This document shows, in pieces, positions 21,112-36,118 of a stretch of 64,000 nt of DNA. How positions within the stretch are numbered: the first letter of the stretch is position 1; every line of letters starts with the position of its first letter. A program made the position numbers and the translations under genes. The notes below the pieces were generated by a model. It saw nothing but the letters and a program-made list of their open reading frames with translations, was not told the origin of the DNA and searched no databases. Source of the stretch: Homoserinibacter gongjuensis (GTDB lineage: Bacteria > Actinomycetota > Actinomycetes > Actinomycetales > Microbacteriaceae); NCBI RefSeq assembly GCF_030161875.1, contig NZ_BSVA01000001.1, positions 868,001 to 932,000 on the forward strand, given 5' to 3'.

Positions 21112-23301
21112 ATGCGAAGCACCACATCCGCGGATGCGCGCAGCGGCGCACCCCGCACCCTGCGTCGAGCGACAGCATTGCTGCTCGGCGCCGTCCTCAC
21201 CGCCTCGGGCGTCGGCCTCGCCGCCGTGCCAGCCCAGGCAGCCACGGCCACACTCGTCGTGAACGCGAGTCAGACGCTGCGGCCCGTCACTCACGTGGCG
21301 ACCGGCAGCCTCTACGGTCTGGCAGACGCCAACACCCCGTCCGACGCGCTGGTGCAGGCGATCAAGCCGAACACCTTCGTGCAGATGCCGCACGACGGCA
21401 AGCAGCAGGGCACCGGCGACATCCTCGCGGTCGCCGCCAAGGCGCAACGCGCGAACGCCAAGCTCGTGCTGCGGATGTCGGACTACTACGCCGGATGGCC
21501 GTACCAGTTCTCGTGGGACACCTGGCTGCCCGCGGTGCGCAAGATGGTGAACGACTCGCTCGCCTCGCCGTACTACTCGTCGATCGTGGCGTACGCGCCG
21601 TGGAACGAGTCGGACAACACCTGGCTCGCCTCCAACGGCACCTTCGAGGACTTCTGGACCCGCACGGTGCGGGAGATCAAGAAGATCGACCCGAACAAGC
21701 CGATCCAGGGCCCGAGCTTCTCCGACAACATTTCGACGATGCGCACGTTCATGCAGAACGCCAAGAACACGAACACGGTGCCCGACATCCTCGCCTGGCA
21801 CGAGCTCATCCGTTCCGGCAAGCTCATCACCGACCTGCAGACCGTCAACGGCATCCTCGCCGACCTCGGCATCAGCCAGCGGCCGATCGACATCGAGGAG
21901 TACGCCGCCCCGAGCGAGGTGGGGCTTCCCGGCCCGCTCGTCGGCTACATCGCCAAGTTCGAGCGCTACGGCATCACCCGCGCCGAGCTCGCGTTCTGGA
22001 ACCAGTCGGGCACCCTCGGCGACCTGCTCACGAGCCGCGGCGGCAGCCCGAACGCGGCCTACTGGCTCTACACCTGGTACGCCCAGATGAGCGGCAACAT
22101 GGTCGTCACGACCCCCGAACGCCTCGACCGGCATCGACGGGGCGGCCTCCCTCACCGCCGACAAGAAGACGCTGAGCGTGATCGTCGGCGGCGGCTCGGG
22201 TGATACCGCCGTGCAGATCACCGGGCTCGGCTCGACGAGCCTCGGCAGCACCGTCACCGTGAAGGTCGAGCGCACGCAGTCGCTCGGACGCACGGTGGCA
22301 TCCGCGGGGCCACGCCGCTCTCGACGAGCACCTACACCGTCACGAACGGCGCCATCACGGTGCCGATCTCGGCCACGACAAACGACGCCTACCGCGTCAC
22401 CGTCACGCCCGGAGCCGGCGGCGGAGACACGGGGCTCGCGGGCGGCTACCGCATCGCGAACGTACACAGCGGTCTGCTGCTCGACACGGCCGGGTCGGGC
22501 ACTTCGGCCGGAACGCTCGTGCAGCAGGCGACGGCGAACGGCGCGAGCACCTCGCAGGTGTGGAACGTCGTGGATGCCGGGAACGGCCGGTACAAGATCG
22601 TCAACGCGAAGAGCGGGCAGGTGCTCGGCATCCAGAACGCCTCGACGAGCCAGGGCGCGTCCGCGCTCATCTGGGGCGACACGGGAACCGCCGACCACGT
22701 GTGGACGTTCGTGTCGGACGGGGCGGGCCACTACAAGATCCGCAACGTGAACAGCGGCCTCGTGCTCGGCGTCACCAACATGAGCACGAGCTCCGGCGCA
22801 CAGGTCATCCAGTGGGGCGACACCGGCACCGCCGATCACCTCTGGACCCTCGGGGCGGCATCCGGCTCGACCCCGATCGCGGGCGACCACCGCGTGTCGA
22901 ACCAGAACAGCGGCCTGCGCCTCGACACCCAGAACTCAGGAACCGCCGCGGGCACGCTCGCGGTGCAGGCGAATGCGAGCAGTTCGACGACGCAGGTGTG
23001 GACCTTCGTCGATGTCGGCGGCGGCCAGTTCAGAATCGTCAACAAGGCGAGCGGCCGCGTGCTCGGCATTCAGAACGCCTCGACGAGCCAGGGCGCATCC
23101 GCGCTCATCTGGTATGACTCGGGTGCGACGGACCACAAGTGGACGGTGGAGCCCGACGGCGCGGGGCACTACAAGCTGCGCAACGTGAACAGCGGGTTGC
23201 TGCTCGGCGTCACCAACATGAGCACCAGCTCCGGTGCCCAGGTGATCCAGTGGGGCGACACGGGCACCGCCGACCACCTCTGGAACCTCGGCGCGGCCTG
23301 A
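21112..23301 (+). CDS. Secreted clan GH-A-like glycosidase with two C-terminal ricin-type (RICIN/CBM13) domains, two compensating indels
   Basis: Exported modular enzyme of about 730 residues. The signal peptide ends in AAVPAQA. The TIM-barrel-like catalytic part has IVAYAPWNESDNTW (Asn-Glu, candidate acid/base) and PIDIEEYAAPSE (candidate nucleophile Glu), the arrangement of clan GH-A. Two tandem ricin-like domains repeat LGIQNASTSQGASALIW and VTNMSTSSGAQVIQWGDTG. Frames shift twice: an extra C in CCCCC 22112-22116 and a missing G at GGGG 22306-22309, net zero. The exact GH family is uncertain. As the only secreted enzyme here, it may generate sugars for the upstream transporter. Confidence 0.75.
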
Positions 23302-23313
23302 GCACGCTCGCCA

Positions 23314-23343
23314 GAGGCCGATCGTCTCGGGACGGTCGGCCTC
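23314..23343. terminator. Hairpin between convergent genes, likely bidirectional terminator
   Basis: A 13-bp stem (GAGGCCGATCGTC with GACGGTCGGCCTC, one G-U pair) closes on the loop TCGG, between the stops of the secreted glycosidase and the thiolase. There is no U-run, as usual in high-GC actinobacteria. Confidence 0.7.
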
Positions 23344-23354
23344 CGGTGCCGAGG

Positions 23355-24539
23355 TCAGCGGGTCAGGATGAGCGCATCGCCCTGCCCGCCGCCCCCGCAC
23401 AGGGCGACCGCGGCGGTGCCGCTGCCGCGTCGCGCGAGCTCGTGCACCATGTGCACGACGAGCCGGTTGCCGGATGCGCCCACCGGATGCCCGAGCGAGA
23501 TGGCGCCGCCGTGGATGTTGACGACGTCGTCGGCGAGGCCGAGCTCGGCCTGGGAGCGCACCACGACGGCGCCGAACGCCTCGTTGATCTCGACGATGTC
23601 GAGCTCGGCGGGGGTGATGCACTGCCGCGCGCAGGCCTGCTCGATGGCACGGGCCGGCTGCGCGTGCAGCGAGTTGTCGGGGCCTGCCACCTGGCCGACG
23701 GCCCCGACGGTGGCGAGCACCGCCCAGCCCTCGGCCTCGGCGCGCTCGCGGCTCGTGAGCACGACGGCCGAGGCGCCGTCGGAGATCTGCGAGGAGTTGC
23801 CGGCCGTGATCGTGCCACTCTCGGTGAAGGCCGGGCGCAAGCGCGCGAGCGTCTCGGGCGTCGTGTCGGGCCGCACCCCCTCATCCGCGGTCACGAGGAG
23901 CGGGTCGCCCTTGCGCTGCGGCACCTCGACCGGCACGAGCTCCGCGTCGAACACGCCGGCCGCCTGGGCGGCCGCGGCGCGCTGGTGCGACCGCGCGGCC
24001 ACGGCATCCTGTGCCTCGCGCGTCACCTCGTAACGCGCGTTGTGGCGCTCGGTCGATGCGCCCATGCTCTCGCGGTCGTACGGGTCGGTCAGGCCGTCGT
24101 AGGCCATGTGGTCGAGCACCTCGACGGTGCCGTACGACCAGCCGTCGCGCGAGCCCATGAGCAGGTGCGGGGCGCGGGTCATCGACTCCATGCCGGCCGC
24201 CACGATCACGGATGCGTCGCCGGAGCGCAGGGTGCGGGCGGCGTCGATCACGGCCGTGAGCCCCGAGAGGCAGACCTTGTTGATGGATCCCGCCGGTACG
24301 TCCCAGCCGAGCCCCGCGCCGAGCGCGGCCTGGCGGGCGGGGTTCTGCCCCGACCCCGCGGCGAGCACCTGCCCCACCAGCACCGCATCCACCGCCGAGG
24401 CCGGGATGCCGCCCCGCTCGAGCGCGCCGCGGATCGCGGTCGAGCCGAGCTCCACGGCGGTGAGCGAGCCGAGCGCGCCCTTCAGCCGCCCCTGCGGCGT
24501 GCGCGCCGCCGCGACGATCACGACATCCGCGCCGTTCAT
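23355..24539 (-). CDS. Acetyl-CoA C-acyltransferase (thiolase)
   Basis: Thiolase of 394 residues. The nucleophile Cys lies in [11 protein letters not shown] (about residue 88), the catalytic His in [14 protein letters not shown] and the second Cys in [13 protein letters not shown]. It cleaves a 3-oxoacyl-CoA with CoA to acetyl-CoA. Its ATG overlaps the stop of CoA-transferase subunit B (ATGA). With the CoA-transferase and an IclR regulator it would activate and cleave a 3-oxo acid such as 3-oxoadipate (pcaF-like) or acetoacetate; no ring-cleavage genes are in the window to decide. Confidence 0.93.
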
Positions 24540-25192
24540 CGCACGACCTCCGCGAGCTCCGGGGCGACGGTGAGCGGCGGCTCGGTCGCGGCGACGACCT
24601 GGTCGACCGTCACGCCGGGCGCCGTCTCGACGAGCACGAGCCCGTCGGGGGTCACGTCGATCACGGCGAGGTCGGTGATGATGCGGTCGACGACGCCGCG
24701 GCCGGTGAGCGGCAGCGAGCACTCGTTCACGATCTTGGCAGAGCCGTCCTTGGCGACGTGCTCCATGAGCACGATCACGCGCGCCGCCCCGTGCACGAGG
24801 TCCATCGCGCCGCCCGGGCCCTTCACCATCTTGCCGGGGATCATCCAGTTCGCCAGGTCGCCCCGCACCGACACCTGCATCGCGCCGAGGATCGCGGCGT
24901 CGATCTTGCCGCCGCGGATCATGCCGAAGCTCGTGGCGGAGTCGAAGAAGGCCGCGCCGGGCAGCGTCGTCACGGTCTCCTTGCCGGCGTTGATGAGGTC
25001 GGGGTCGACGTCGGCCTCGCTCGGGTAGGGGCCGACACCGAGGATGCCGTTCTCGGACTGCAGCACGACGGTCACCCCGTCGGGCACGTGGTTCGGCACG
25101 AGCGTCGGCAGGCCGATGCCGAGGTTCACGTAGGAGCCGTCGGCGAGCTCTCGGGCCGCACGGGCGGCCATCTCGTCACGGGTGAGCGCCAT
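24536..25192 (-). CDS. 3-oxoacid CoA-transferase subunit B
   Basis: Small subunit of a family I CoA-transferase, 218 residues. [11 protein letters not shown] and the catalytic glutamate motif [11 protein letters not shown] are characteristic. It moves CoA from succinyl-CoA or acetyl-CoA to a 3-oxo acid, acting as a complex with subunit A. The gene overlaps subunit A by 17 bp and the thiolase by 4 bp, a tightly coupled operon. Confidence 0.93.
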
Positions 25193-25976
25193 CCGCGTCA
25201 CTTCCTTCCGTCGCGGCGGCGACGGTGCGCCGCTCGATCCGCTTCTCGATGTCGGTGCCCACCTCGACCACGCGGTGCACGAAGACGCCGGGCAGGTGGA
25301 TGCTGTCGGGGTCGAGCTCGCCGGGTTCGACGAGCCGCTCGACCTGGGCGATGCAGACCCGGCCCGCCATCGCGGCGAGCGGGTTGAAGTTGCGCGCGGC
25401 CTTGGTGAACACGAGGTTGCCGTGGCGATCTCCGGCGGCGGCGTGCACGAGGGCATAGTCGGTCGTGATGGCCTCCTCGAGCACGAACTCGCGCGGCGTG
25501 CCGCCCACCTCGAAGACACGCACGTCCTTGACGGGTGAGGCGACCGCGACACCGCCGTTCCCGTCGTAGCGGCGGGGCAGCCCGCCGCCTGCCACCTGGG
25601 TGCCGACGCCGGTCTGCGTGTAGAAGGCCGCGATCCCGGAGCCGCCCGCGCGCAGCTTCTCGGCGAGCGTGCCCTGCGGGGTGAGTTCGAGCTCGAGCTC
25701 GCCCGAGAGGAACTGCCGCTCGAACTCCTTGTTCTCGCCCACATACGACGAGGTCATCTTGCGGATGCGCTGCGCCTGCAGCAAGATGCCGAGGCCCCAG
25801 TCGTCGACGCCGCAGTTGTTCGACACGATCGACAGCTCGCGCGTGCCCTGAGCCAGCAGCGCCTCGATGAGCGCGATCGGATTGCCCGAGAGCCCGAAGC
25901 CGCCGACGGCGAGCGAGGCTCCGTCGGGGATGTCGGCGACGGCCTCCGCCGCACTCGCGATCCGCTTGTCGATCAT
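25176..25976 (-). CDS. 3-oxoacid CoA-transferase subunit A
   Basis: Large-numbered partner of the CoA-transferase, 266 residues, with the CoA-binding motif GGFGLSGNP and [14 protein letters not shown] near the N-terminus. The start at 25976 is preceded by GGAGG. It is the first gene of the operon subunit A-subunit B-thiolase and lies 130 bp from a divergent IclR-type regulator. PcaI-like (3-oxoadipate) and acetoacetate-specific enzymes look alike here. Confidence 0.93.
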
Positions 25977-26096
25977 CGTCGATCCTCCGTGATGGGTCAC
26001 CGTCGTCGGTTGCGTCCTGGGATGCGTCCCCAGCCTGGGCGACCCGCTGCGGGAGACGAAGCGGCGGCTTGCCATGTGGAATCGGATGCGCGTAGC

Positions 26097-26111
26097 GTCC
26101 ACATCGTGGAC
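26097..26111. promoter_or_regulatory. Inverted repeat overlapping IclR start (probable autoregulatory operator)
   Basis: GTCCAC-ATC-GTGGAC is a perfect 6-bp inverted repeat. It overlaps both the -10 box TAGCGT (26093-26098) and the leaderless GTG start at 26106. Related GTCCACATCG and ATGTGGA words occur at 26129-26138 and 26074-26080, so the region may hold several half-sites. Confidence 0.6.
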
Positions 26112-26921
26112 ACTTTGGATCAGGCGATGTCCACATCGCCGAGCGGTGGGGGCACCCAGTCGGTGTCCCGCGCCGCCCTGCTGCTCAAGCTCGTCGCGCG
26201 CACGGGCGACGGCATCCGCGTCTCCGAGCTCGCGGAGCGTGCCGAACTGACCCGCCCGACCACGCACCGCCTGCTCGCGGCACTCCGGCGCGAGGGGCTT
26301 GTCGACCGCGACGAGCAGACCGGCCTCTGGGTGCCGGGCCCCGAGCTCTACCTCATGGGCACGGCGGCCGCGGCGCGCTACGACGTGGCCGATCTCGCGC
26401 GCGACATCGTGCGCTCGCTCGCCGGGGTCACCGAGGAGAGCGCCTTCTTCTCGGTGCGACAGGGCGACGAGACGGTGTGCCTCGTGCGCGAGGACGGCAG
26501 CTTCCCCATCCGTTCCTTCGTGCTGTCCGAGGGCGTGCGGTTCCCGCTCGGGGTGGCCTCCGCGGGGCTCGCGATCCTGGCCTTCCTGCCGTCGGCCGAG
26601 GTCGACGCGTACTTCGCGCGGCATCCGGAGCTGCCCGAGAAGTGGGGCCGCCCGCACGGCGAGAAGCGGCTGCGCGCCCGGCTCGCCGAGACCCAGGAGC
26701 ACGGCTACTCGCTCAACCCCGGCCTCATCGTGGAGGGCAGCTACGGGCTCGGCGCGGCGGTGTTCACGCGGGCCGGGCACCCCCAGTGGGCGCTCAGCCT
26801 CACCGGCGTGCAGTTCCGCTTCACGCCCGAGCGTGTCGAGAAGCTCGGGCGAATCCTGCTCTCCCACGCGCACCAGCTCACGGCGCGCATCGCCGCGAGC
26901 GGCCGCGGCACCTGGCGCTGA
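26106..26921 (+). CDS. IclR-family transcriptional regulator
   Basis: IclR regulator with N-terminal winged HTH (RVSELAERAELTRPTTHRLL) and C-terminal effector domain (PLGVASAGLAILAFLP ... HGYSLNPGLIVEGSYGLGAAV). Divergent from the CoA-transferase/thiolase operon, which it likely controls in response to the pathway's aromatic or keto-acid intermediate, as PcaR-type proteins do. TAGCGT sits 7 nt before the GTG at 26106, implying a leaderless start; an ATG at 26127 is the alternative. Confidence 0.9.
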   Translation: MDTLDQAMSTSPSGGGTQSVSRAALLLKLVARTGDGIRVSELAERAELTRPTTHRLLAALRREGLVDRDEQTGLWVPGPELYLMGTAAAARYDVADLARDIVRSLAGVTEESAFFSVRQGDETVCLVREDGSFPIRSFVLSEGVRFPLGVASAGLAILAFLPSAEVDAYFARHPELPEKWGRPHGEKRLRARLAETQEHGYSLNPGLIVEGSYGLGAAVFTRAGHPQWALSLTGVQFRFTPERVEKLGRILLSHAHQLTARIAASGRGTWR

Positions 26922-26925
26922 GCGT

Positions 26926-27795
26926 TCAGGGCACCTCGTGCATCGCCGACACCGGCGCGATCGCGAGGTGCGCGAGCACGGCATCCACCGTCGCGAGGTG
27001 ACCGATCACCCGCGTGTGGCCGGCATCCGGCACGACCTCGAGCCGAGCGCCGAGGGTCGCCTCGGCGAGCTCACGCGACGCGGCGAGCGGCACCTGACGG
27101 TCGCGCGCACCGTGCACGATCAGCAACGGAACCGACGGGGCGAGCGGATGCGCGATGCCGTCGTAGCGCAGGTCGAACGTCGCGGGGGTGTCACCGAGAC
27201 GAGCGAGAAAGCGACGTTCGAGGTCGTCGCGAGCGGCGCCGTCGAGTCGCATCATCCGCGCGAACTCGTCGAGGAACACGGCGGGTCGGCCGGCGCCCGC
27301 GAGCGAGACGACCGTGTCGGTCTCGAGCCCGAGCCGCGCGGCCGTGAGCGCCGCGAAGCCGCCGAAGGAGTGCCCGATCACCGAGCGGAAGCGGCCGTGC
27401 CGTCGCTGCAGTTCGGCGAGCACGGCGAGCCAGTCGCGCACGTCGACACGACCGCCCTGCGAGCCGCCGTGGGCGGCGACGTCGGGCGCGATGACGCGGT
27501 AGCCGTCGGCCCGCAGCGCCGGCACGAGCGGTGCGAACTGCGAGGCGCGTCCCCGCCAGCCGTGCAGCAGCACGAGCAGCGGCCCGTCGACGCCCCAGGA
27601 GGCCACGTTCACGCGCCGCCCGTCGACGACCATGTGCTCATGGCGCGCGTCGCGCATGATGCCGACCGCATCTGGAGCCACCCGCATGCGGGGTCGGGTG
27701 ACGAAGAAGACGCGGAGGGCGAGAGCTCCGCCCCACCGCCGGTCGAGGGCGTCGGCCGCGCGGAGGGCGGTCGCGGCGAGCGCGGTACTGGGCAC
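26926..27795 (-). CDS. Alpha/beta hydrolase
   Basis: Alpha/beta-hydrolase fold enzyme of 289 residues. Oxyanion region LLHGWRGRASQ, nucleophile elbow GHSFGG (Ser about residue 142), acid in VHGARDRQVP and catalytic His in PDAGHTRVIG. An N-terminal helix-rich leader precedes the fold; no signal peptide. The start is the GTG at 27795 with AAAGGAG. It is divergent from a TetR gene, and two identical palindromes lie between, so it is very probably that regulator's target. Substrate unknown. Confidence 0.9.
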   Translation of the reverse strand: MPSTALAATALRAADALDRRWGGALALRVFFVTRPRMRVAPDAVGIMRDARHEHMVVDGRRVNVASWGVDGPLLVLLHGWRGRASQFAPLVPALRADGYRVIAPDVAAHGGSQGGRVDVRDWLAVLAELQRRHGRFRSVIGHSFGGFAALTAARLGLETDTVVSLAGAGRPAVFLDEFARMMRLDGAARDDLERRFLARLGDTPATFDLRYDGIAHPLAPSVPLLIVHGARDRQVPLAASRELAEATLGARLEVVPDAGHTRVIGHLATVDAVLAHLAIAPVSAMHEVP

Positions 27796-27808
27796 GGAAA
27801 CTCCTTTA

Positions 27809-27861
27809 CGAACGATCGTTCGGATAGCTGACCCGAACTATACATTCCGAACGATCGTTCG
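27809..27861. promoter_or_regulatory. Pair of identical TetR-type operators
   Basis: CGAACGATCGTTCG occurs at 27809-27822 and 27848-27861, both perfect 14-bp palindromes. One lies next to the hydrolase Shine-Dalgarno and the other next to the -10 (TAAACT, 27862-27867) of the TetR gene. Binding would repress both directions. Confidence 0.88.
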
Positions 27862-27873
27862 TAAACTGTCGAC

Positions 27874-28517
27874 GTGACGATGGTGACCGACGGACGACGC
27901 GCGCGGGGCGACGCCTCCCGGCGCACGGTGCTCGCGCGCGCCACCCAGCTCGCATCGGTCGAGGGCCTCGACGGCCTGAGCATCGGCGCACTCGCGACCG
28001 CGACCGGGCGCAGCAAGTCGACTATCGCCACCCTCTTCGGCGACAAGCAGGGCCTCCAGCTCGCGACCATCGACGCCGCGGCCGAGGTGTTCCGCGAGCA
28101 CGTCGTCGAGACGGCCCGTCGGGTGCCGCACGGCGCCGGGCGGATCGCGGCTCTCCTCGCCGCGATGCTCGTCTACTCCCGCGACCGCGTGTTCGAGGGC
28201 GGCTGCTTCTTCGCCGCCGTCTCGGCCGACCTCGACTCGAAGCCCGGCCCCGCCGCCGACGCCGTGCGCAGCTGGACGCGGCAGTGGCACGACTACGTCG
28301 AGCGCCAACTGCGCACCGCGATGGAGTGCGGCGACCTCCGCACCGACACGGACGTCGACCAGCTCGCCTTCGAGCTCATCGCCCTCGCCGAGGGCGCGAA
28401 CGTGCGCTCCCTGCTCGCGAACGACGCGCGGCCCTACGCGCGAGCCGCATCAGCCATCAGCTCGGCGCTGCTGCGCGCGGGGCCCCGCCCGAGACGCTCG
28501 GGGCGCTCGAGCTGTAG
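27874..28517 (+). CDS. TetR-family transcriptional regulator, apparent C-terminal frameshift
   Basis: TetR repressor with HTH SIGALATATGRSKSTIATLF and a TetR_C-like domain (FEGGCFFAAVSADLDSKPGP). TAAACT lies 6 nt before the GTG at 27874, implying leaderless expression. Near 28479-28486 (GGGGCCCC) the frame appears to lose one base. Corrected, the protein ends PPETLGALEL at 28517; uncorrected, it would read through into the next gene, which I reject. It controls the divergent hydrolase through the two palindromes between them. Confidence 0.9.
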
Positions 28518-28552
28518 CCACCCGCGCCGCCCTGTCACGCTCCCCGGGCCGC

Positions 28553-28568
28553 GTCAAGGGGTCGAGAA
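28553..28568 (+). promoter_or_regulatory. Shared upstream element GTCAAGGGGTCGAGAA (copy 1)
   Basis: A 16-bp sequence identical to 34967-34982, each 26-28 nt before the start codon of an operon encoding membrane-associated proteins. Its constant distance suggests a promoter element or activator site rather than chance. Confidence 0.45.
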
Positions 28569-28596
28569 GTGCTCGCGACAGGGCCAGGGTCGAGGC

Positions 28597-29004
28597 ATGA
28601 GGCTGCTCGGGCTCGTGGTCGCCGCCGTGCTGGCGTGCGCGCTGTGCGGATGCTCCACGCAGGCCGAACAGCTCACGGATGCCTCCGCATCCGGCGTCGC
28701 GGCTGTGCGCTCCAGCGCCCTCGCTCTCGAACTCGCCGCCGACGGCCGGGAGTGGCGACCGGCCTCCGACACCGCGCTCGCCGACGCGCTCACCGAACTG
28801 AGCGATGCCCACCGCACGCTCATCGAGCTCGTGCCGGGTGACGCCGAGCAGGAGCAGGCGCGCGACAGCGTCGCCGACGCGCTGCAACGCGCGCTCGGCG
28901 CTGTCGCCGGGGCACGCGCCGCCCTCGCGCACGGCGACGAGCTCGACGGCTGGATCGCGCAACTCGATGACGCGGCGGATGCGCTCGAGGGGGCCGCCGG
29001 ATGA
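28597..29004 (+). CDS. Small lipoprotein, first gene of NRAMP-like operon
   Basis: Unrecognised 135-residue protein. The signal peptide has a lipobox-like end (LACALCGC, Cys about residue 20), so it is probably lipid-anchored outside the membrane. The mature part is alanine-rich and predicted helical (SVADALQRALGAVAGARAAL). Its stop overlaps the ATG of the NRAMP-like gene (ATGA at 29001), so expression is coupled, suggesting an accessory role for that transporter. Confidence 0.7.
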   Translation: MRLLGLVVAAVLACALCGCSTQAEQLTDASASGVAAVRSSALALELAADGREWRPASDTALADALTELSDAHRTLIELVPGDAEQEQARDSVADALQRALGAVAGARAALAHGDELDGWIAQLDDAADALEGAAG

Positions 29005-30229
29005 AGCGCCTATTCGCGGTCGCCCTGGGTGTGCTCACGGCGATCGGGGGTTCGTCGACATCGGAGACCTCGTCACCAATGCCGTGGTCGGGTCGCGCTT
29101 CGGCATGTCGCTCGCCTGGGTGGTGCTCGTGGGCGTCGTGGGCATCTGCCTGTTCGCCAACATGTCGGGGCGTGTCGCGGCGGTCAGCGGGCGGGCCACC
29201 TTCGAGATCATCCGCGAGCGCCTGGGGCCCCGGGCGGGACTCGCGAACCTCGGGGCGAGCTTCTTCATCAACCTCATGACGATGGCGGCTGAGATCGGCG
29301 GCATCGCACTCGTGCTGCAGCTCGTGACCGGCATCGGCCCGCTGCTCTGGATGCCGCTCGCGGCGTTCGCCGTATGGATCGTGGTGTGGCGGGCCAAGTT
29401 CTCGCAGCTGGAGAACGCCACCGGCCTGCTCGGGCTCAGCCTCATCGTGTTCGCCGTCGCCGTGGTCATGCTCGGGCCCGACTGGGGCGCCCTCACCCAC
29501 CAGGCGCTCGTGCCCACGGTGCCGCAGAGCGAGAATCCGGTGAGCTACTGGTACTACGCGGTCGCGCTGTTCGGCGCGGCGATGACGCCGTACGAGGTGT
29601 TCTTCTTCTCCTCCGGGGCGATCGAGGAGGGCTGGGGGCGGCGCGACCTCGGGCAGGCCCGCGTGAACGTGCTCGTGGGCTTCCCGCTCGGCGGGCTGCT
29701 CTCGCTCGCGATCGCGGCATCCGCGACGATCGTGCTGCTGCCGCAGGCGATCGAGGTGACCTCGCTCTCGCAGGTCGTGCTGCCCGTCGTGCAGGCCGGT
29801 GGCACCGTGGCGTTCTGCTTCCTGGTGGTCGGGATGCTCGCGGCGTTCTTCGGGGCGGCGCTCGAGACGACGCTGTCGAGCGGCTACACCATCGCCCAGT
29901 ACTTCGGATGGTCGTGGGGCAAGTTCCGTCGCCCCGCGAAGGCCGCGCGCTTCCACCTCGTGATGATCCTCGGACTGATCGTCGCCGTCGCGGTGCTGAT
30001 GACGGGCGTCGACCCGGTGGCGGTGACCGAGTACTCGGTGGTGTTCTCGGCGGTCGCGTTGCCGCTCACCTATATTCCGATCCTCATCATCTCCAACGAT
30101 CCGGACTACATGGGCAGCGACGTCAACTCCCCCGCCGTCAACGGCGCGGCGCTCGTCTACCTCGTGATCATCGTCGTCGCGGCGCTTGCGGCGATCCCGC
30201 TCATGATCCTCTCGGGAGCTGGTGCCTGA
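29001..30229 (+). CDS. Divergent NRAMP-family metal transporter, apparent frameshift near N-terminus
   Basis: SLC11/NRAMP-type membrane protein of about 410 residues with 11 predicted helices. The normally invariant TM1 motif DPGN reads DIGD (FVDIGDLVTNAVVGSRFG), and the TM6 MPH motif reads TPY (GAAMTPYEVFFFSS). These residues bind the metal in Mn/Fe transporters, so substrate choice probably differs; NRAMP-related Mg2+ transporters also lack the Met. The first 15 codons (MKRLFAVALGVLTAIGG) lie in another frame; one missing G in GGGGG 29046-29050 joins them. Its stop overlaps the ATG of a PRC-barrel gene. Confidence 0.85.
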
Positions 30230-30954
30230 TGAAGTCTCCGACCGTGCGCGCGGGCCGCCTGCTCGATGCCCAGCTGCACCTGCTGGATCGGCAGGTGCTC
30301 GACCGCTCCGGCACGCCCGTGACCGCCGTCGACGACCTCGAGCTCACCGACGTGCCGCTCGGCACCGATCTCGCGAAGGTCGAGCCGCCCGTCATCGAGA
30401 ACCTGCTCGCCGGCGCCGTGCTCGGCACGCGCATCTTCGGCGGCCGCACTCCCGACAACCGCTGGCACCGCATCCCCTGGTCGGTCATCGCGAAGCTCGA
30501 CGTGGCGATCTCGCTCGAGGCGGATGCGGATGACTTCGACGTGCGCTGGTCGGAACGCTGGGTGCGCGACCGCATCGTCGCTCGCATCCCGGGGGTCGCC
30601 ATGATCCTGAGTGACCTGCTGGGCACCGAGGTGCGCGAGGCCGACGGCACCGCGGTGGGCCGCGTGATCGACGCGCGGTTCCGGCTCGAAGGCAACACGA
30701 GTCCCTCGCGGGCGCGGCTCGTGGGGCTCATCGTGAGCCGGGGCGCTGTCGCCTCCTACCTCGGCTACGAGCGCACCGCGGCATCCCGTCCGGTGCTGCT
30801 CGACAAGCTGCTGCGCGCGCTGCACCGCGGCTCGTTCCTCGTGCTGTGGCAGGACATCGAACGCATCGAGGAGCACCAGGTGCTGCTGCGATCGGGCTAC
30901 GAACGCCAGTCGTCGGTGCTCGACCCGGATGCGCAGGCGTCGTCAGACCGCTAG
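30229..30954 (+). CDS. PRC-barrel-type protein coupled to the NRAMP-like transporter
   Basis: Cytosolic protein of 241 residues with two PRC-barrel-like units. The first surrounds LLDRQVLDRSGTPVTAVDDL and the second LLGTEVREADGTAVGRVIDA, separated by a helical linker. Such barrels occur as regulatory modules in MgtE-type Mg2+ transport proteins. Its ATG shares one base with the transporter stop (TGATG), so stoichiometric expression is likely. I infer a gating or sensing subunit; no direct evidence. The last 12 bp overlap the convergent surface-protein gene. Confidence 0.78.
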   Translation: MKSPTVRAGRLLDAQLHLLDRQVLDRSGTPVTAVDDLELTDVPLGTDLAKVEPPVIENLLAGAVLGTRIFGGRTPDNRWHRIPWSVIAKLDVAISLEADADDFDVRWSERWVRDRIVARIPGVAMILSDLLGTEVREADGTAVGRVIDARFRLEGNTSPSRARLVGLIVSRGAVASYLGYERTAASRPVLLDKLLRALHRGSFLVLWQDIERIEEHQVLLRSGYERQSSVLDPDAQASSDR

Positions 30955-32262
30955 GCGCGCGACCTGCCGTCGGCCGAGGATGAGCGCGCCGACGCCCGCG
31001 AGCAGCGCCGCGAGCGACACGAGGCCCACGACGATCGTTCCGGTCGGTGCCCCCGTTGCGGCGAGTTCGGCGCCACCGCCGGCAGCGAGCACCGTCACCT
31101 GCACGACACCGAGCGCACCGCTGGTCTGCCCGCGGAAGAGCACGTGGTGGGTGCCGCCCGCGAGGTGCGAGAGGTCGACGCCGCGCAACTGGACGGTGCC
31201 GCCCACGACCGCGAAGGTGCCGAGGAAGCTCGCGGTCGAGTAGGAGTAGACGTCGACGAAGGCGTCGGATGGCTCACTCCACGGAAAGTCTCCCGCGAAC
31301 GGAAGCGTGGGGTCGACGCGCGAGATGTCGGCGTTGGCGAGCCCGACAGGCACGAACTGCGCCGTGTCGGCCGCAACATCGATGCCCTCGGCGTCGATCA
31401 GGTCGGCCAGAGCCGTGCTGTCGGCTGCCGGAGGTGCCGCCGGCGCCGCGGGCTCGGCGGCGAAGCGGTAGGAGACGCCACCGACCGTGATATCACTCAC
31501 ACGCGCGGTGGTCGGCCCAGCCGTGCCGGAACCCGCCCCGACGACGATTGCGGTCACCTCGTACTCGGCGATCTGAGCGAAGTAGTCGGAGAAGGTGCCG
31601 CTGCCCGAGAACGCCCCGACCTTCGGCCAGGTGCCGATGCGCTTCTGCGACCGCCACCCACCGGTGCCCGTCGAGCTGTCCACGGCGGTGTCGGCCGTCA
31701 GATCGACGGTCGCCCAGCCGGCGCTTGCCGCAAGCGGCTCCCATTTGAGAACCGTGTAGCACCAGGTCTCCGGCACGTCGGTGAAACCCCAGACGTTCGC
31801 CGAGTCGCAGTAGTCATTGCCCGGCGCCGCGGGGTCGGTCGGGTTGGGACCGTAGCTCGAGTCGGCGGGGCGGAAGACGAGTTCGAACTGGAAGTTCACG
31901 TTGGGGCCCGCATAGGTGTAGCTCGCGCCGGCCCGCAGCGCGTCGATGTCGGTGGGACGCTCGCCCGCGGCGAAGCTGCGGTACACGTACGCCCGCGAGG
32001 TCGTGTCGGCGAGATTCAGAGCGAGCGCCGTGTCGCCATCGGGACCGAGCGCGTCGACACCGACCGAGGCGTTGGACACATCACTCCACCACCCGGCAGA
32101 CGCGGCAGGGCGAGAACTCGCGAGGTCGGACGCATGCACGTCGACGACGCCGCCCGGCGCCGCCACCGCGGACGAACCCGGCAGTGCAAGCAGTGCAGTG
32201 ACGCCGACGGCGACCATCGTCACCGCCGCGCGACGGAAGGATGCGGAAAGGGACGGCGTCAT
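30943..32262 (-). CDS. Secreted surface protein with LAATG sortase-like anchor
   Basis: Exported protein of 439 residues. The signal peptide ends near SSAVAAPGG. The long beta-rich ectodomain is not recognised. The C-terminus has ELAATGAPTG, a hydrophobic helix (VGLVSLAALLAGVGALIL) and the basic tail GRRQVARLAV. This is the LPXTG-like layout, with LAXTG being the form preferred by class E sortases of actinobacteria. It is therefore probably covalently attached to the cell wall. No sortase gene is in the window. Confidence 0.8.
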   Translation of the reverse strand: MTPSLSASFRRAAVTMVAVGVTALLALPGSSAVAAPGGVVDVHASDLASSRPAASAGWWSDVSNASVGVDALGPDGDTALALNLADTTSRAYVYRSFAAGERPTDIDALRAGASYTYAGPNVNFQFELVFRPADSSYGPNPTDPAAPGNDYCDSANVWGFTDVPETWCYTVLKWEPLAASAGWATVDLTADTAVDSSTGTGGWRSQKRIGTWPKVGAFSGSGTFSDYFAQIAEYEVTAIVVGAGSGTAGPTTARVSDITVGGVSYRFAAEPAAPAAPPAADSTALADLIDAEGIDVAADTAQFVPVGLANADISRVDPTLPFAGDFPWSEPSDAFVDVYSYSTASFLGTFAVVGGTVQLRGVDLSHLAGGTHHVLFRGQTSGALGVVQVTVLAAGGGAELAATGAPTGTIVVGLVSLAALLAGVGALILGRRQVARLAV

Positions 32263-32438
32263 GGCTCGGGTGCCTCGTCTGGGTTCTCGGGGTCAAGTCG
32301 GTCGGCCGCCCGCAAAGCAGATGGGGGGCCACGTCGGGGCGGCCAACCGGGCCGAGCCTAGGGTTCGCGCAGGCTCGGCGTCACCGGGCCGGAGCTCGAT
32401 TCACCCACCGTCTCAACCCTGCGGCCCCCGTGCGCGGG

Positions 32439-34849
32439 TCACCTCTCGAGATAACGGAAGGCCTCGAAGAGGCCCGCACGCATCGCGCGGTCCACGGCAT
32501 CCGAACGGGATGCCGCCGCGAGCTTGCGGTAGAGGTTGCGCAGATGCGTCTTGATCGTGTTGAGCGACACGAACTGCTCGGCCGCCAACTGCTGAACCGA
32601 CGCGTCGCTGCGAAGCAGCGTGAGCAGTTCCGCCTCCCGCTGCGTGAGCGGCTCGCGGAGCACGTCATCCGCTTCGGCTCCCTGCGGGCCGGGCACACCG
32701 ACCCGCTCCGCGTGCTCGCGCAGCTCGGGGAAACGCGCCCAGTTGATGACGCCGCCCCACCACCGCGCGGGCACGTCGACCACGAGCGTGTCGAACGCCA
32801 TGCGCGCGACGCTCGGCATGCCCGATCTGGCCAGCGCGACGATCCGCACGATCCGTACGCGCCAACTCGTGCGCCGTGAGTGGTCGGCGACCTTCTCGCA
32901 GGCCTCCAGCTCGCGCAGCGCGTCCTGGGGAACCCCATGGCGAGCAGGGCGCGAGCCCGCAACGCGACGAAGCAGAAAATGTGGCGCGGGTCCGGCTCCA
33001 ACCCCTCCAGCAGGCGCAGGGCGAGCCCCGGGCGACCCATCTCGATGAGCTGCCGGGCCCGCAGGTCGAGGGCGACGGCACGCGGCAGGGGTGCCAGATC
33101 TCGACGGTCGCGGGCTGGCTCCGCAAGCGAATCGGGGGCGCGGTCCCGGAACGCGAGGTCCTTGACCGCGAAGTCTCCGAGCAGGTCCCAGGCGCGCGAC
33201 GATCGCTCCCCGTGGCGCAGCTCCTTCGCAACCGCCACCATCTGCGGCAGGTCGCGGGCATTCATCGCGTCGACGTAGCGTGCCAGCAACACGGTGCGAG
33301 CGGGCCGCGCACCTTCCGCTTCGCGCACGCGCGTGAACGGTTCGCACAGCTCGGCCATCGCCAGATCGCCCCGCAGCGTGGCGTTGTAGAGCGCGAGTCC
33401 CGCGGCCGCCTCGAGCGAGATCCGCCACCTGTCGCCCTCGGGCGCCGCGAGCACAGCGCGCGCGTGCCGATCCGCGGCCTCGAGGTCGAGCAACTCCGTG
33501 AGGGCGGCGAGCAGCGTCACGAGTACCGCGTTCCGAATGCGCGCCGCACGCTGGCGCTCCGCCCATGGCGCATGCTCCAGCTGTGCGAGCGCGGCCTCGG
33601 CGGCGCGAACGGCCTCGGCGGGGCGGGCATCGGCGATCAGCAGGATCGCACGGGAGGCGAGGATCGCCCCGCGCGCTCCCTCCGTCTGCACGGCGAGCTC
33701 GTCATCCGACAGGCGGAGCAGGTTCTCGGCGTCGGGCAGCTCGCGCGGGTCGCCGCCACGGCCGACTTCGACAAGCAGGCAGGCCGCGACGAATGCCGGA
33801 TCCTCGGCGGCTCGAGTCATCACGAGCCAGCGCGTGTCGACCACGAACTCCACCGCGCGCGGATCGGGGTGCGCCAGCACCGCCTCGATGTACGCGTGAG
33901 CGGCATCCGTATCGCCCGCGAGTGCCGCCCAATACCGGCCCGGCAGCGAACCGGGTGCGGCGCGTGACGCCAGCTCGCGCGCGATCTCCGCGACCGGCAT
34001 GCCGGCACCCCGGGCAGGCGCGAGCGTGCGCAGGACCGCGATCGCCGCGCGTGGTGCGGCGACCGACAGCACGACGGCGTCGTGGATGTGCGAGGCGGTG
34101 CGTTCGACGAGCCCCTCGGCGAACAGTTCGGCGAGGGCGTCCTCGCTGCTGCCCGCCACCTCGAGAAGATCCGGCACCAGTTCGACCGGCACCTCGCCCA
34201 GCACGTCGAGCGCGAGCAGCAGACGGTCGGCACCGTGCCGACCGAGCCGCTCGTGCAGCCAGCGTGCGTACATCCGCTCCGCCGAGACGCCTGGGTACTC
34301 GGTGCGCAGTTGCGCGCACGCGACGATGCGTCCCGGCGACCCCTCGCACAACTGGACGAGCTGAGCGAGCTGCTCCTCGTTCAGCGCCAGGCCACGGCGA
34401 GCGAGCGCCTCGGATGCGAGGTCGGCATCCCAGGCCAGGTCGTCGTCGGTCACCACCTCGACACTCTGCTGGGCGGGGCGGCGCTCCAGACGGCCCGCGG
34501 TACACACCACGACGGTGACGTCACGGCGCCGCCTGGTCAGTCCGGCCAGGTCGAGCAGCTCGATGCGATCTACGAACCGCCGCGCATCCTCGATCACGAG
34601 AACGGTGCGACCACCGGAATCGGTGACGTCGGGCAGGTGCGTGAGCACACTCAGACCGCGCCGCAGCACCTCATCGGGCCCGTCCGGGGGCATGCGGGAG
34701 TCATCCCAGGCGACCTGCCAATCGGGATGCCGCGCCACCCAGGCGCGGATGGTGGTGCGTGATCCGAAGCCCGGGCGAGCATCGAAGACGATCAGCTGAC
34801 CGGCCGCCGCGGCCGCATCGAGGCGCTCGACGAGGCGCGGGCGCTCCAC
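32439..34849 (-). CDS. Large LuxR-family (LAL/MalT-like) regulator with degenerate P-loop, apparent frameshift
   Basis: About 800-residue regulator. The N-terminal STAND-type NTPase region has DARPGFGSRTTIRAWV where a Walker A lysine is expected, and TVLVIEDARRFVD at Walker B. A helical TPR-like middle is followed by a C-terminal LuxR HTH (LTQREAELLTLLRSDASVQQ ... VSLNTIKTHLRNLYRKL). The last 160 residues lie in another frame; the break is at GGGGAACCCC 32927-32936, fitting one missing base. The GTG at 34849, preceded by GGGGGA, is preferred to a TTG at 34876. Targets unknown; the adjacent surface-protein gene is one candidate. Confidence 0.84.
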
Positions 34850-34966
34850 CCAACGCGTGTCCCCCGGTGACCCCAACTCGTCTCCCGAACTTGTCCCCCG
34901 AGAAACGTTATACGCAACGCCGCGCGAGCAGAACCTCCGTGCAGCTAGCCCCGTCGGACGGGCGTC

Positions 34967-34982
34967 GTCAAGGGGTCGAGAA
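34967..34982 (+). promoter_or_regulatory. Shared upstream element GTCAAGGGGTCGAGAA (copy 2)
   Basis: Identical to 28553-28568; here 26 nt before the ATG of the DUF6766 gene. See the finding on this element. Confidence 0.45.
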
Positions 34983-35008
34983 CCGCCGCCGAGGCGGCGA
35001 GAGTCAAC

Positions 35009-35710
35009 ATGCGGAGGTCGGCGGACTACCTCGCGCAGGGAGGTGGGGTCGTGGCCTGGCTACGGAATCACGGGCTCGTCATCGTCAACCTGGTGCTGTT
35101 CGTCGGGTTCCTGACGGGGATGACGTTCGCGGGCTGGCAGGTCTCCAACGACGACGCGCTCGACCACGGCGATCCCACCCAGACCGTCGGGGCCTACCTG
35201 GCGTCCGGCGACTACTGGGAGGCCGTCTCCGAGAACTGGGAGAGCGAGTTCCTGCAGATGGCCTCGTATATCGCCTTCACGATCTTCCTCTTCCAGACGG
35301 GCTCCTCGGAGTCGAAGCCGATCGGCACACCCGCGCCGCAGGACGAGGATCCGCGCCGCCACCGCACCGACCCGAAGGCGCCCTGGCCCGTGCGGCGCGG
35401 CGGCTGGGTGCTCGTGCTCTACGAGAACTCGATGCTCATCCTCTTCGCCGTGCTCTTCGTGGCCGCGTTCGTGACCCACCTCATCTCGGGTGCCGCGGCC
35501 TACAGCGAGGAACAGCTTCGCCACGGCCTGCCGGGCGTGACACCGCTCGAGTATCTCGGAACCTCGCAGTTCTGGTTCGAATCGTTCCAGAACTGGCAGA
35601 GCGAGTTCATGGTCGTGGCCCTGCTCGCCGGCGCGGCGGTGTATCTGCGTCAGCGCGGCTCGAGCGAGTCGAAGCCCGTGCACGTGCCCCATGCCGAGAC
35701 CGGGGCCTGA
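35009..35710 (+). CDS. DUF6766-family membrane protein
   Basis: Membrane protein of 233 residues matching the DUF6766 type. There are four predicted helices in two halves, each ending in the same signature: YWEAVSENWESEFLQM ... TGSSESKPIG and FWFESFQNWQSEFMVV ... RGSSESKPVH. The internal duplication is clear from the sequence. Function unknown; such genes often accompany stress-response genes. A small acidic protein gene follows after 17 bp, probably in the same operon. Confidence 0.82.
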   Translation: MRRSADYLAQGGGVVAWLRNHGLVIVNLVLFVGFLTGMTFAGWQVSNDDALDHGDPTQTVGAYLASGDYWEAVSENWESEFLQMASYIAFTIFLFQTGSSESKPIGTPAPQDEDPRRHRTDPKAPWPVRRGGWVLVLYENSMLILFAVLFVAAFVTHLISGAAAYSEEQLRHGLPGVTPLEYLGTSQFWFESFQNWQSEFMVVALLAGAAVYLRQRGSSESKPVHVPHAETGA

Positions 35711-35727
35711 TCAAGAAGGAGAGCATC

Positions 35728-35973
35728 ATGACCGAGGAACGCAGTCACGACGCGGATGACGCGGAGGTCATCTCCGACGGCGAGTGGGCCGGCCAGAGTG
35801 GCTCCGCCGGGCCCGATGACGACGACCCGCAGGGCATGCGCGGTCAGCTCGATGACTCGATGGACGGGCTTGAGGAGGGCGACGACGCCGGAGAGGCATC
35901 GCGCGGTATCCCGCAGAATGCGCCGACGCGCGACGACGCGTCCACGGACGATTCCGGTGACGCGTCGTCGTAG
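35728..35973 (+). CDS. Small acidic disordered protein (81 aa)
   Basis: Unrecognised; Asp/Glu/Ser/Gly-rich, predicted disordered, no signal peptide. AAGAAGGAGAG lies just upstream of the ATG at 35728. It follows the DUF6766 gene closely. Its composition resembles the products at 12423 and 38394. Confidence 0.65.
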   Translation: MTEERSHDADDAEVISDGEWAGQSGSAGPDDDDPQGMRGQLDDSMDGLEEGDDAGEASRGIPQNAPTRDDASTDDSGDASS

Positions 35974-35998
35974 TTCCGCGCCGGGCGACTTCGCGCGC

Positions 35999-36118
35999 TC
36001 AGCCGTCGCCGTCGAGCGCGAGCGACAGGTCGATCGGCGTCTCGACGTCGCTCCAGTCCTCGTCGACGAGTCCGGTCACGTCGTCGCCCGAGTCGAGCAC
36101 CACATCCCTCATGGTCAT
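35999..36118 (-). CDS. Small acidic hypothetical protein (39 aa)
   Basis: MTMRDVVLDSGDDVTGLVDE begins a 39-residue acidic frame. GAGGGG precedes it, placing ATG 36118 or, with better spacing, ATG 36112. The element GTCAAGCCCCTCG (36169-36157) lies upstream, like that of the 38883 gene. Function unknown. Confidence 0.45.
   Translation of the reverse strand: MTMRDVVLDSGDDVTGLVDEDWSDVETPIDLSLALDGDG

Follow-up and report, generated by a model that had tools for sequence, protein, structure and literature searches.

The window, a stretch of 64,000 nucleotides from Homoserinibacter gongjuensis (contig NZ_BSVA01000001.1, positions 868,001 to 932,000, forward strand), carries a cassette of four genes, namely a lipoprotein gene, an Nramp-like transporter gene and two genes for small PRC-barrel proteins, designated PRC1 and PRC2 (Table 1). 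With somewhat better than even confidence, the cassette is read here as encoding a divalent-cation carrier of the SLC11 (LeuT-type) fold that has partners of its own on either side of the membrane. The first-pass annotation had described a coupled three-gene operon. Its lipoprotein, transporter and PRC open reading frame (ORF) were found, together with the reported overlaps of 4 bases (29001-29004) and 1 base (30229), but relatives have four genes. The transporter matched PF01566 with 180.3 bits (cut-off 29.8; E 7.1e-53).

The gene order was highly constant among relatives. Of 363 relatives confirmed by scanning genome contigs, the best 80, all titled, were kept and are referred to as named loci or named relatives. 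A lipoprotein homologue was located 5' of the transporter at 80/80 named loci. The two genes overlapped by 4 bases at 58 and by 1 base at 16 of the 80, and were separated by 5-16 bases at five; L056, where the frame of the lipoprotein match lacks the expected stop, was ambiguous. The overlap of transporter and PRC1, measured from the start codon nearest the stop, was 4 bases at 78 of the 79 loci measured. The PRC2 start (ATG or GTG) was found 14 bases before the end of the PRC1 stop at 76 of 79 loci, the overlap being 11 bases at two and 4 bases at one. A G-rich stretch resembling a ribosome site (GGGAGG-type) was present 4-14 bases 5' of the PRC2 start at 77/79 loci. A programmed frameshift from PRC1 into PRC2, an idea prompted by the constant overlap, was rejected as unneeded because of this G run.

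The two PRC halves were matched in different frames in 79 of the 80 named relatives, and the remaining one (L008) gave a single match reading through a stop. PRC1 typically ends in ..RIPGG.H.. followed by the stop. Since a base is also missing before PRC2 in the window, the single two-barrel PRC protein proposed earlier (ORF 30229-30954) was given up: it is a local fusion of two genes, which most likely stems from an assembly error. One-chain PRC versions do occur in the distant members L136 and L140. The PF05239 score of the window ORF, 17.1 bits, was below the cut-off of 21.2, so that its assignment rests on profile comparison; the single barrels of L006, L166 and L167 were likewise below the cut-off or unmatched, while the fused relatives L136 (25.1) and L140 (41.6) were above it. 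Aligning the fused ORF jointly with PRC1 and PRC2 as separate rows gave a faulty alignment, which was discarded.

Table 1. Positions of the cassette genes and associated features within the window.
Feature	Position	Strand	Basis or remark
Lipoprotein gene, first of the cassette (135 aa, P0002)	28597..29004	+	Lipobox, model, upstream homologues
Transporter gene start, MKRLFAVALGVLTAIGG	29001..29050	+	Out of frame with the remainder in this assembly
First 1-base deletion (G run), breaks the transporter frame	29046..29051	+	Seen against the congeners L095 and L096 (three-way alignment)
Nramp-like transporter body (392 aa from here, P0004)	29051..30229	+	PF01566
TM1 ion-site motif DIGD (NRAMP: DPGN)	29057..29068	+	Conserved in close relatives
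TM6 ion-site motif AAMTPYE (NRAMP: ATVMPHN)	29576..29596	+	AAMT/SAMT in close relatives
PRC1 gene (barrel 1)	30229..30603	+	Former stop here would be 30612-30614
Second 1-base deletion (G run of the PRC2 ribosome site), joins PRC1 to PRC2 in this assembly	30591..30595	+	
PRC2 gene (barrel 2)	30601..30954	+	ATG 30601 is the start in relatives

The transporter is also interrupted in this assembly. The frame from ATG 29001 (MKRLFAVALGVLTAIGG) loses register at the G run 29046-29050, and reading of the body, FVDIGD..., starts at 29051. In 80/80 named relatives the stretch before F(V/L)DIGD, ending in an ALG-ILTAIGG-like sequence, is in frame with a start codon. In the three-way DNA alignment the window has GG-GGG at the transporter start where L095 and L096 have GGCGGG, and GGG-GG before PRC2 where the congeners have GGGAGG or GGGGGG. 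From the transporter start to about 30850, these two sites, both in G-rich runs, were the only window-specific 1-base gaps. Differences of 3 bases were observed in L095 at the transporter end and, near 30870, in the window; the lipoprotein leader and the region beyond the 3' end had longer ones. Compared with two congeners, the canonical mntH of the same genome (L097, G000:C1:2257500-2260000) has lost a single base at each of two places in G-rich runs and is thereby broken into three frames; a Pfam search matched it in three pieces.

Given that the losses are specific to the window and that mntH has two of the same type, the frame breaks in the cassette are most likely assembly errors and not decay. 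Indel errors also fit the estimated completeness of this one-contig assembly, 89.8%. The error rate is uneven across the assembly, as no window-specific 1-base gap was detected at 23370-26920 in the alignment with congeners. It is improbable that the copy is a decaying pseudogene cassette in which both deletions are real mutations. The broken frames would agree with decay, as would the accessory nature of the cassette and a related genome of the same family, G611, whose cassette transporter is split over two frames (G611:C1:3537293-3538512). However, the transporter body is 92% and 90% identical to those of the congeners G008 and G001 without a further frame-changing indel, the coding pattern in third-position GC is steady, mntH has lost two bases in a similar way, and the completeness value fits indel errors. 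Outside the cassette, the coding frame of a LuxR-type regulator ORF (32381-34876, minus strand) shifts at about 32850-33000 by third-position GC, a further likely indel.

Co-occurrence was evaluated in 396 actinobacterial genomes drawn independently of the cassette, some of which may coincide with named loci; seven of them, including the window's own, had given rows to the lipoprotein profile and four to the PRC1 profile, and these match by construction. The transporter profile found 21 places in 20 genomes with at least 212 bits, the next match (172 bits) grouping with NRMT proteins. The PRC1 profile (E <= 1e-6) also found 21 places in 20 genomes, of which 20 adjoin cassette transporters; the lone match, G254 (E 5.7e-7), lies in a genome without a cassette transporter, and in G192, where the contig ends within the transporter, PRC1 was not matched. 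The 18 best lipoprotein matches (E <= 3.7e-10) were all beside a transporter, and three transporters had no such neighbour at that threshold (G200, the second of G335, and G361). Weaker lipoprotein matches, from E 2e-8, occurred in about 80 other genomes, a few of them over most of the profile, and look like general signal-peptide or helical similarity. The cassette genes do travel together, both at the named loci and in this panel. The cassette is accessory, being present in 17 of 299 family genomes (E <= 1e-60) and in three of nine in the genus.

The ion site of the transporter was compared with the known motifs of the superfamily, which are DxxN-A/CxxM in NRAMP, DxxN-AxxT in the plant NRAT and DxxG-TxxA/T in NRMT proteins (PMC8806188). 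The replacements noticed initially, DIGD for DPGN in transmembrane helix 1 (TM1) and TPY for MPH in TM6, were both present (AMTPYE at 29579-29596), and the altered site proved to be conserved: among 82 close relatives TM1 was DIGD in all, and TM6 was AAMT in 80 and SAMT in two. This pattern, DxxD-A/SxxT, corresponds neither to the canonical NRAMP/MntH motif nor, because of its DxxD, to that of NRAT. A wider alignment (29 actinobacterial and four proteobacterial rows; DraNramp numbering) revealed that D56 and E134 were kept in 29/29 actinobacterial rows and that N59 was replaced by D in 28. In 29/29, M230 was T or S, Q378 was V, L, I or M, H232 was Y, H237 was F or Y and D131 was hydrophobic. 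R352, another residue of the proton pathway, was still R or K in 22/29. Additional acids were present at position 233 (29/29) and at position 375 (27/29). The four proteobacterial rows displayed E at 56, S, E or N at 59, A at 227 and S at 230, and lacked the acids of positions 233 and 375. By these alignments, the exact DxxD-AxxT site is a trait of the actinobacterial branch and does not extend to the cassette family as a whole.

A tree of 64 rows, arbitrarily rooted, with a long-branch warning from the program and with the incomplete transporters L143 and L170 excluded, placed the 33 cassette transporters (29 actinobacterial and four proteobacterial) in a branch of their own (100/100). The NRMT branch (21 rows including EleNRMT, 100/98) contained no cassette rows, and the MntH branch (eight rows, 100/100) stood apart from them. 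The cassette transporters were thus found outside both branches. Neither of the two outcomes that would have refuted the first-pass annotation, a position inside the Mn/Fe NRAMPs or a lack of co-occurrence of the genes, was obtained. The closest solved structure by sequence was EleNRMT (7qia, E 3.7e-33). The predicted model of the transporter of a close relative, L006 (mean pLDDT 80.8, pTM 0.85), also matched EleNRMT best (TM-score 0.80), the DraNramp entries giving 0.65-0.78.

The cassette transporter shares with NRMT the PF01566 domain, the SLC11 fold, the kept TM1 Asp and TM3 Glu and the loss of the NRAMP Met and His, and a PRC-containing gene adjoins many NRMT genes as well. It differs in its site and in its separate branch; in addition, the cassette has two small PRC genes without MgtE_N or CBS, a lipoprotein, and no detected M-box. 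With canonical NRAMP/MntH proteins (DraNramp and the mntH products of the congeners) it has the fold and the TM1 Asp in common, whereas DPGN, MPH and most proton-pathway residues are absent. The two congeners with the cassette also possess a canonical MntH (DPGN and MPH), to which the cassette transporter is about 24-27% identical. It shares AxxT in TM6 with the plant aluminium transporters of the NRAT type, which have DxxN in TM1. The orphan Slc11 outgroup of Cellier (PMC9606685, PMC10606218) is likewise a non-NRAMP group of PF01566; if L152 represents it, as we infer, this outgroup has Gly56 and Tyr/Asn at 130/134, positions occupied in the cassette by Asp, mostly Thr, and Glu.

The window lipoprotein carries the lipobox LCGC with the cysteine at residue 19, and the presence of a signal helix together with this cysteine identifies it, at the level of sequence, as a bacterial lipoprotein. 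The cysteine was invariant in 31 aligned sequences, most rows of which had been preselected by the lipobox pattern. After the signal helix the predicted model is a four-helix bundle (mean pLDDT 92.6). The family is divergent, 30 rows being 21-35% identical to the window protein. A profile was built from 68 loci and covers 66 of the 80 named loci; it recovered the gene ahead of the transporter in all 14 close relatives left out (E 3.7e-13 to 2.7e-39). Among 14 distant actinobacterial loci 11 were matched (not L137, L138 and L142), and so were Mesorhizobium L166, Rhizobium L169 and Streptomyces L165. In the 21 loci of NRMT or outgroup type (L144-L164) no match fell below E 0.01, and haloarchaeal L168 had none. 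Foldseek gave no match to the four-helix model at E <= 0.001. VIA-align matches reached Z 13.1, but no function was drawn from them, as such matches are common for helical bundles.

In order to relate the PRC genes to those of known transporters, 20 NRMT-type loci of the same phylum were used, our own choice from the weaker transporter-profile matches in the 396 genomes. The cassette's own profiles detected a PRC-bearing neighbour at 14 of the 20. Ten such partner proteins from nine loci all passed the PRC cut-off; five had full MgtE_N and CBS domains, one a sub-threshold MgtE_N and four PRC only. In profile comparison, PRC1 (94.1%) and PRC2 (97.8%) both matched the N-terminal PRC region of these partners, and they matched each other at 95.4%. 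The barrels thus appear homologous; both profiles aligned to the first barrel of the partners, so no one-to-one pairing could be made. Judged by sequence, the PRC partnership is common to NRMT genes and to the cassette, the difference being one chain with MgtE_N and CBS in the former and bare barrels in the latter. According to PMC4072509, an MgtE_N-like gene neighbours most NrmT members; the term 'PRC' is absent from its main text. At the cassette, neither MgtE_N nor CBS was matched in the window's PRC ORF, lipoprotein and TetR protein or in nine cassette proteins of relatives. An M-box Mg2+ riboswitch was detected at two of the 13 NRMT loci scanned. The link between PRC barrels and Mg2+ transport suggested at the outset is hence supported indirectly, by the neighbours, their domains and these riboswitches. 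Each of the two M-boxes (L145:2058-2251 and L146:7323-7492) lies ahead of an NRMT operon whose first gene bears PRC; in L145 this gene is of the PRC-MgtE_N-CBS type. At L164:2515-6280 an NRMT gene is flanked by a PRC-MgtE_N-CBS gene upstream (weak MgtE match) and a PRC-only gene downstream.

In the proposed mechanism, a divalent cation would bind at the unwound TM1/TM6 site, formed by the kept TM1 Asp, a second Asp in place of Asn and a Thr in place of Met. The loss of Met suggests that the site has given up its special preference for soft transition metals and that Mg2+ or Mn2+ is likelier. Because both TM6 His and other charged pathway residues have been lost, transport is proposed not to be driven through the NRAMP proton pathway. 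From gene order, the PRC1 and PRC2 barrels are expected to bind the cytoplasmic face of the carrier and to regulate or stabilise it, by analogy with the PRC-MgtE_N-CBS proteins that may act likewise for NRMT. The four-helix lipoprotein, placed by the same reasoning, would dock outside as an accessory or sensing subunit, and the gene overlaps would give coupled synthesis. Mg2+ and Mn2+ seem about equally probable as the ion, and another cation is possible.

Several observations weigh against this proposal of a carrier with dedicated partners. Physical contact among the four proteins is presumed from gene order. The lipoprotein profile gave no match in L167 and only E 0.27 in L171, although L167 has a lipobox-bearing gene in that position, and the PRC2 profile matched neither L166 nor L169. 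The four proteobacterial rows have drifted further at the site, so the same ion need not be carried in all members. The site is not that of NRMT, and Rfam models, applied to 27 cassette loci and to the window in full, identified nothing but tRNA and rRNA; a riboswitch for Mg2+ or Mn2+ was not detected. Finally, if the deletions in the window copy were genuine mutations, which was rated improbable above, this copy would be dead, though the family would be unaffected.

The initial suggestion of Mg2+ as the substrate is not supported, since the site is unlike that of NRMT and no riboswitch was found in the loci scanned, and even among NrmT proteins one member is regarded as a likely Mn transporter (PMC4072509). 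A strict Mg2+ importer, acting as a functional counterpart of NRMT with regulators of its own, is nevertheless a possibility to which we give appreciable, if clearly less than even, weight. It would be in line with EleNRMT, a Mg2+ transporter, as the nearest solved relative, with the shared PRC partners, with the MntH of the two cassette-bearing congeners, by which Mn uptake is already covered, and with the loss of a Met that helps to exclude alkaline-earth ions (shown for Ca2+; PMC8806188). Against it, the transporter lies outside the NRMT branch with DxxD-AxxT instead of DxxG-TxxA/T, and the riboswitch search that retrieved two M-boxes at NRMT loci retrieved none at cassettes. Moreover, EcoDMT given an NRMT-like site gained no Mg2+ transport (PMC8806188), and therefore the site letters alone are not predictive.

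Slightly less probable is a uniporter of Mn2+ or another transition metal, comparable to the NrmT of A. capsulatum or to clade B Nramps. That NrmT is reported to rescue a Mn-transport defect fully, whereas its rescue of a Mg defect is confined to low millimolar Mg (PMC4072509), a clade B Nramp moves metals without protons (PMC12873925, a preprint), and EcoDMT site mutants retain Mn2+ transport (PMC8806188). The replacement of Met230 and Gln378 in every sampled actinobacterial row (29/29) and the MntH already present in the two congeners stand in its way.

Less favoured again, and in our view unlikely, is another substrate (e.g. Ca2+, or another or an organic cation) or export, in a general-stress response and not in metal nutrition. 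The proteobacterial rows, with Glu as the first acid and a variable fourth residue, could be accommodated by it, as could the Ca2+ transport acquired by EcoDMT M235A (PMC8806188) and the patchy accessory distribution with plasmid copies; the fold and the conserved TM1 acid, on the other hand, indicate cations. Upstream sequences were scanned with a SigB/SigF-like promoter consensus. The pattern was found at 10 of the 80 named loci (200 shuffles: mean 0.27, maximum 3), compared with 28 of 2206 other stretches (1.3%), and this hints at stress control of the cassette in some lineages. It lies 0.4-0.76 kb 5' of the transporter, e.g. in L011, L022, L036, L053, L055 and L084. It was absent at the other 70 named loci and in the window at 27901-28620, and clustering of flanking ORFs at the 80 loci gave a commonest family at only 10 of them, both of which speak against a stress role. 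For the latter reason the TetR gene at 27874-28515 was not counted as part of the cassette.

Plasmid copies were searched by tblastn, which matched the transporter in 120 plasmid records, many of the weaker ones being other Nramp relatives; seven records were examined for gene order. On Streptomyces, Mesorhizobium, Caballeronia and Rhizobium plasmids, genes for a hypothetical protein, the transporter, a hypothetical protein and a PRC-barrel or hypothetical protein stand in a row. On the Mesorhizobium and Rhizobium plasmids the third gene was matched by the PRC1 profile and the fourth was not matched by that of PRC2. A Paraburkholderia copy was matched in two pieces with no annotated gene beneath, and one Rhizobium record carries no annotation. 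The transporter relative in the haloarchaeal record (L168, a Haladaptatus plasmid) has other neighbours; it has Gly at the TM1 Asp position and lies directly 5' of hydantoinase/oxoprolinase genes, which suggests another substrate. On the Caballeronia plasmid a CBS-domain gene of the opposite strand (L167:7233-7658) follows the cassette downstream, at a distance of about 1.4 kb. A megablast of 22000-36000 against plasmids returned 19 records, and among the matches listed all fell at about 24.5-26.0 kb, outside the cassette.

No description of the cassette was found in the open literature searched, which covered PRC-barrel proteins with Nramp, Mg2+ transporter or lipoprotein operons, subscription papers being outside this scope. 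The cassette, which is present in many soil bacteria, looks like a multi-component system for ion transport that has so far gone undescribed. More tentatively, and with less than even confidence, this separate SLC11 lineage may be a multi-subunit transporter whose DxxD carrier needs the outer lipoprotein and the split inner PRC pair to open or to be regulated. If so, no earlier Nramp relative is known to us that has subunits of its own on each face of the membrane; few non-canonical Nramp relatives are known to have been studied. Nramp-related proteins outside the canonical group have been described as paraphyletic (PMC12873925). Within them, the cassette lineage would represent an alternative solution of the ion site, DxxD-AxxT and rich in acids, to which its actinobacterial branch adds new acidic residues in TM6 and TM10, and may serve as a natural experiment on ion choice and proton independence in SLC11. 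The PRC barrels are indicated as an element common to NRMT operons and the cassette, and the fixed partners would render accessory subunits of an SLC11 carrier testable.

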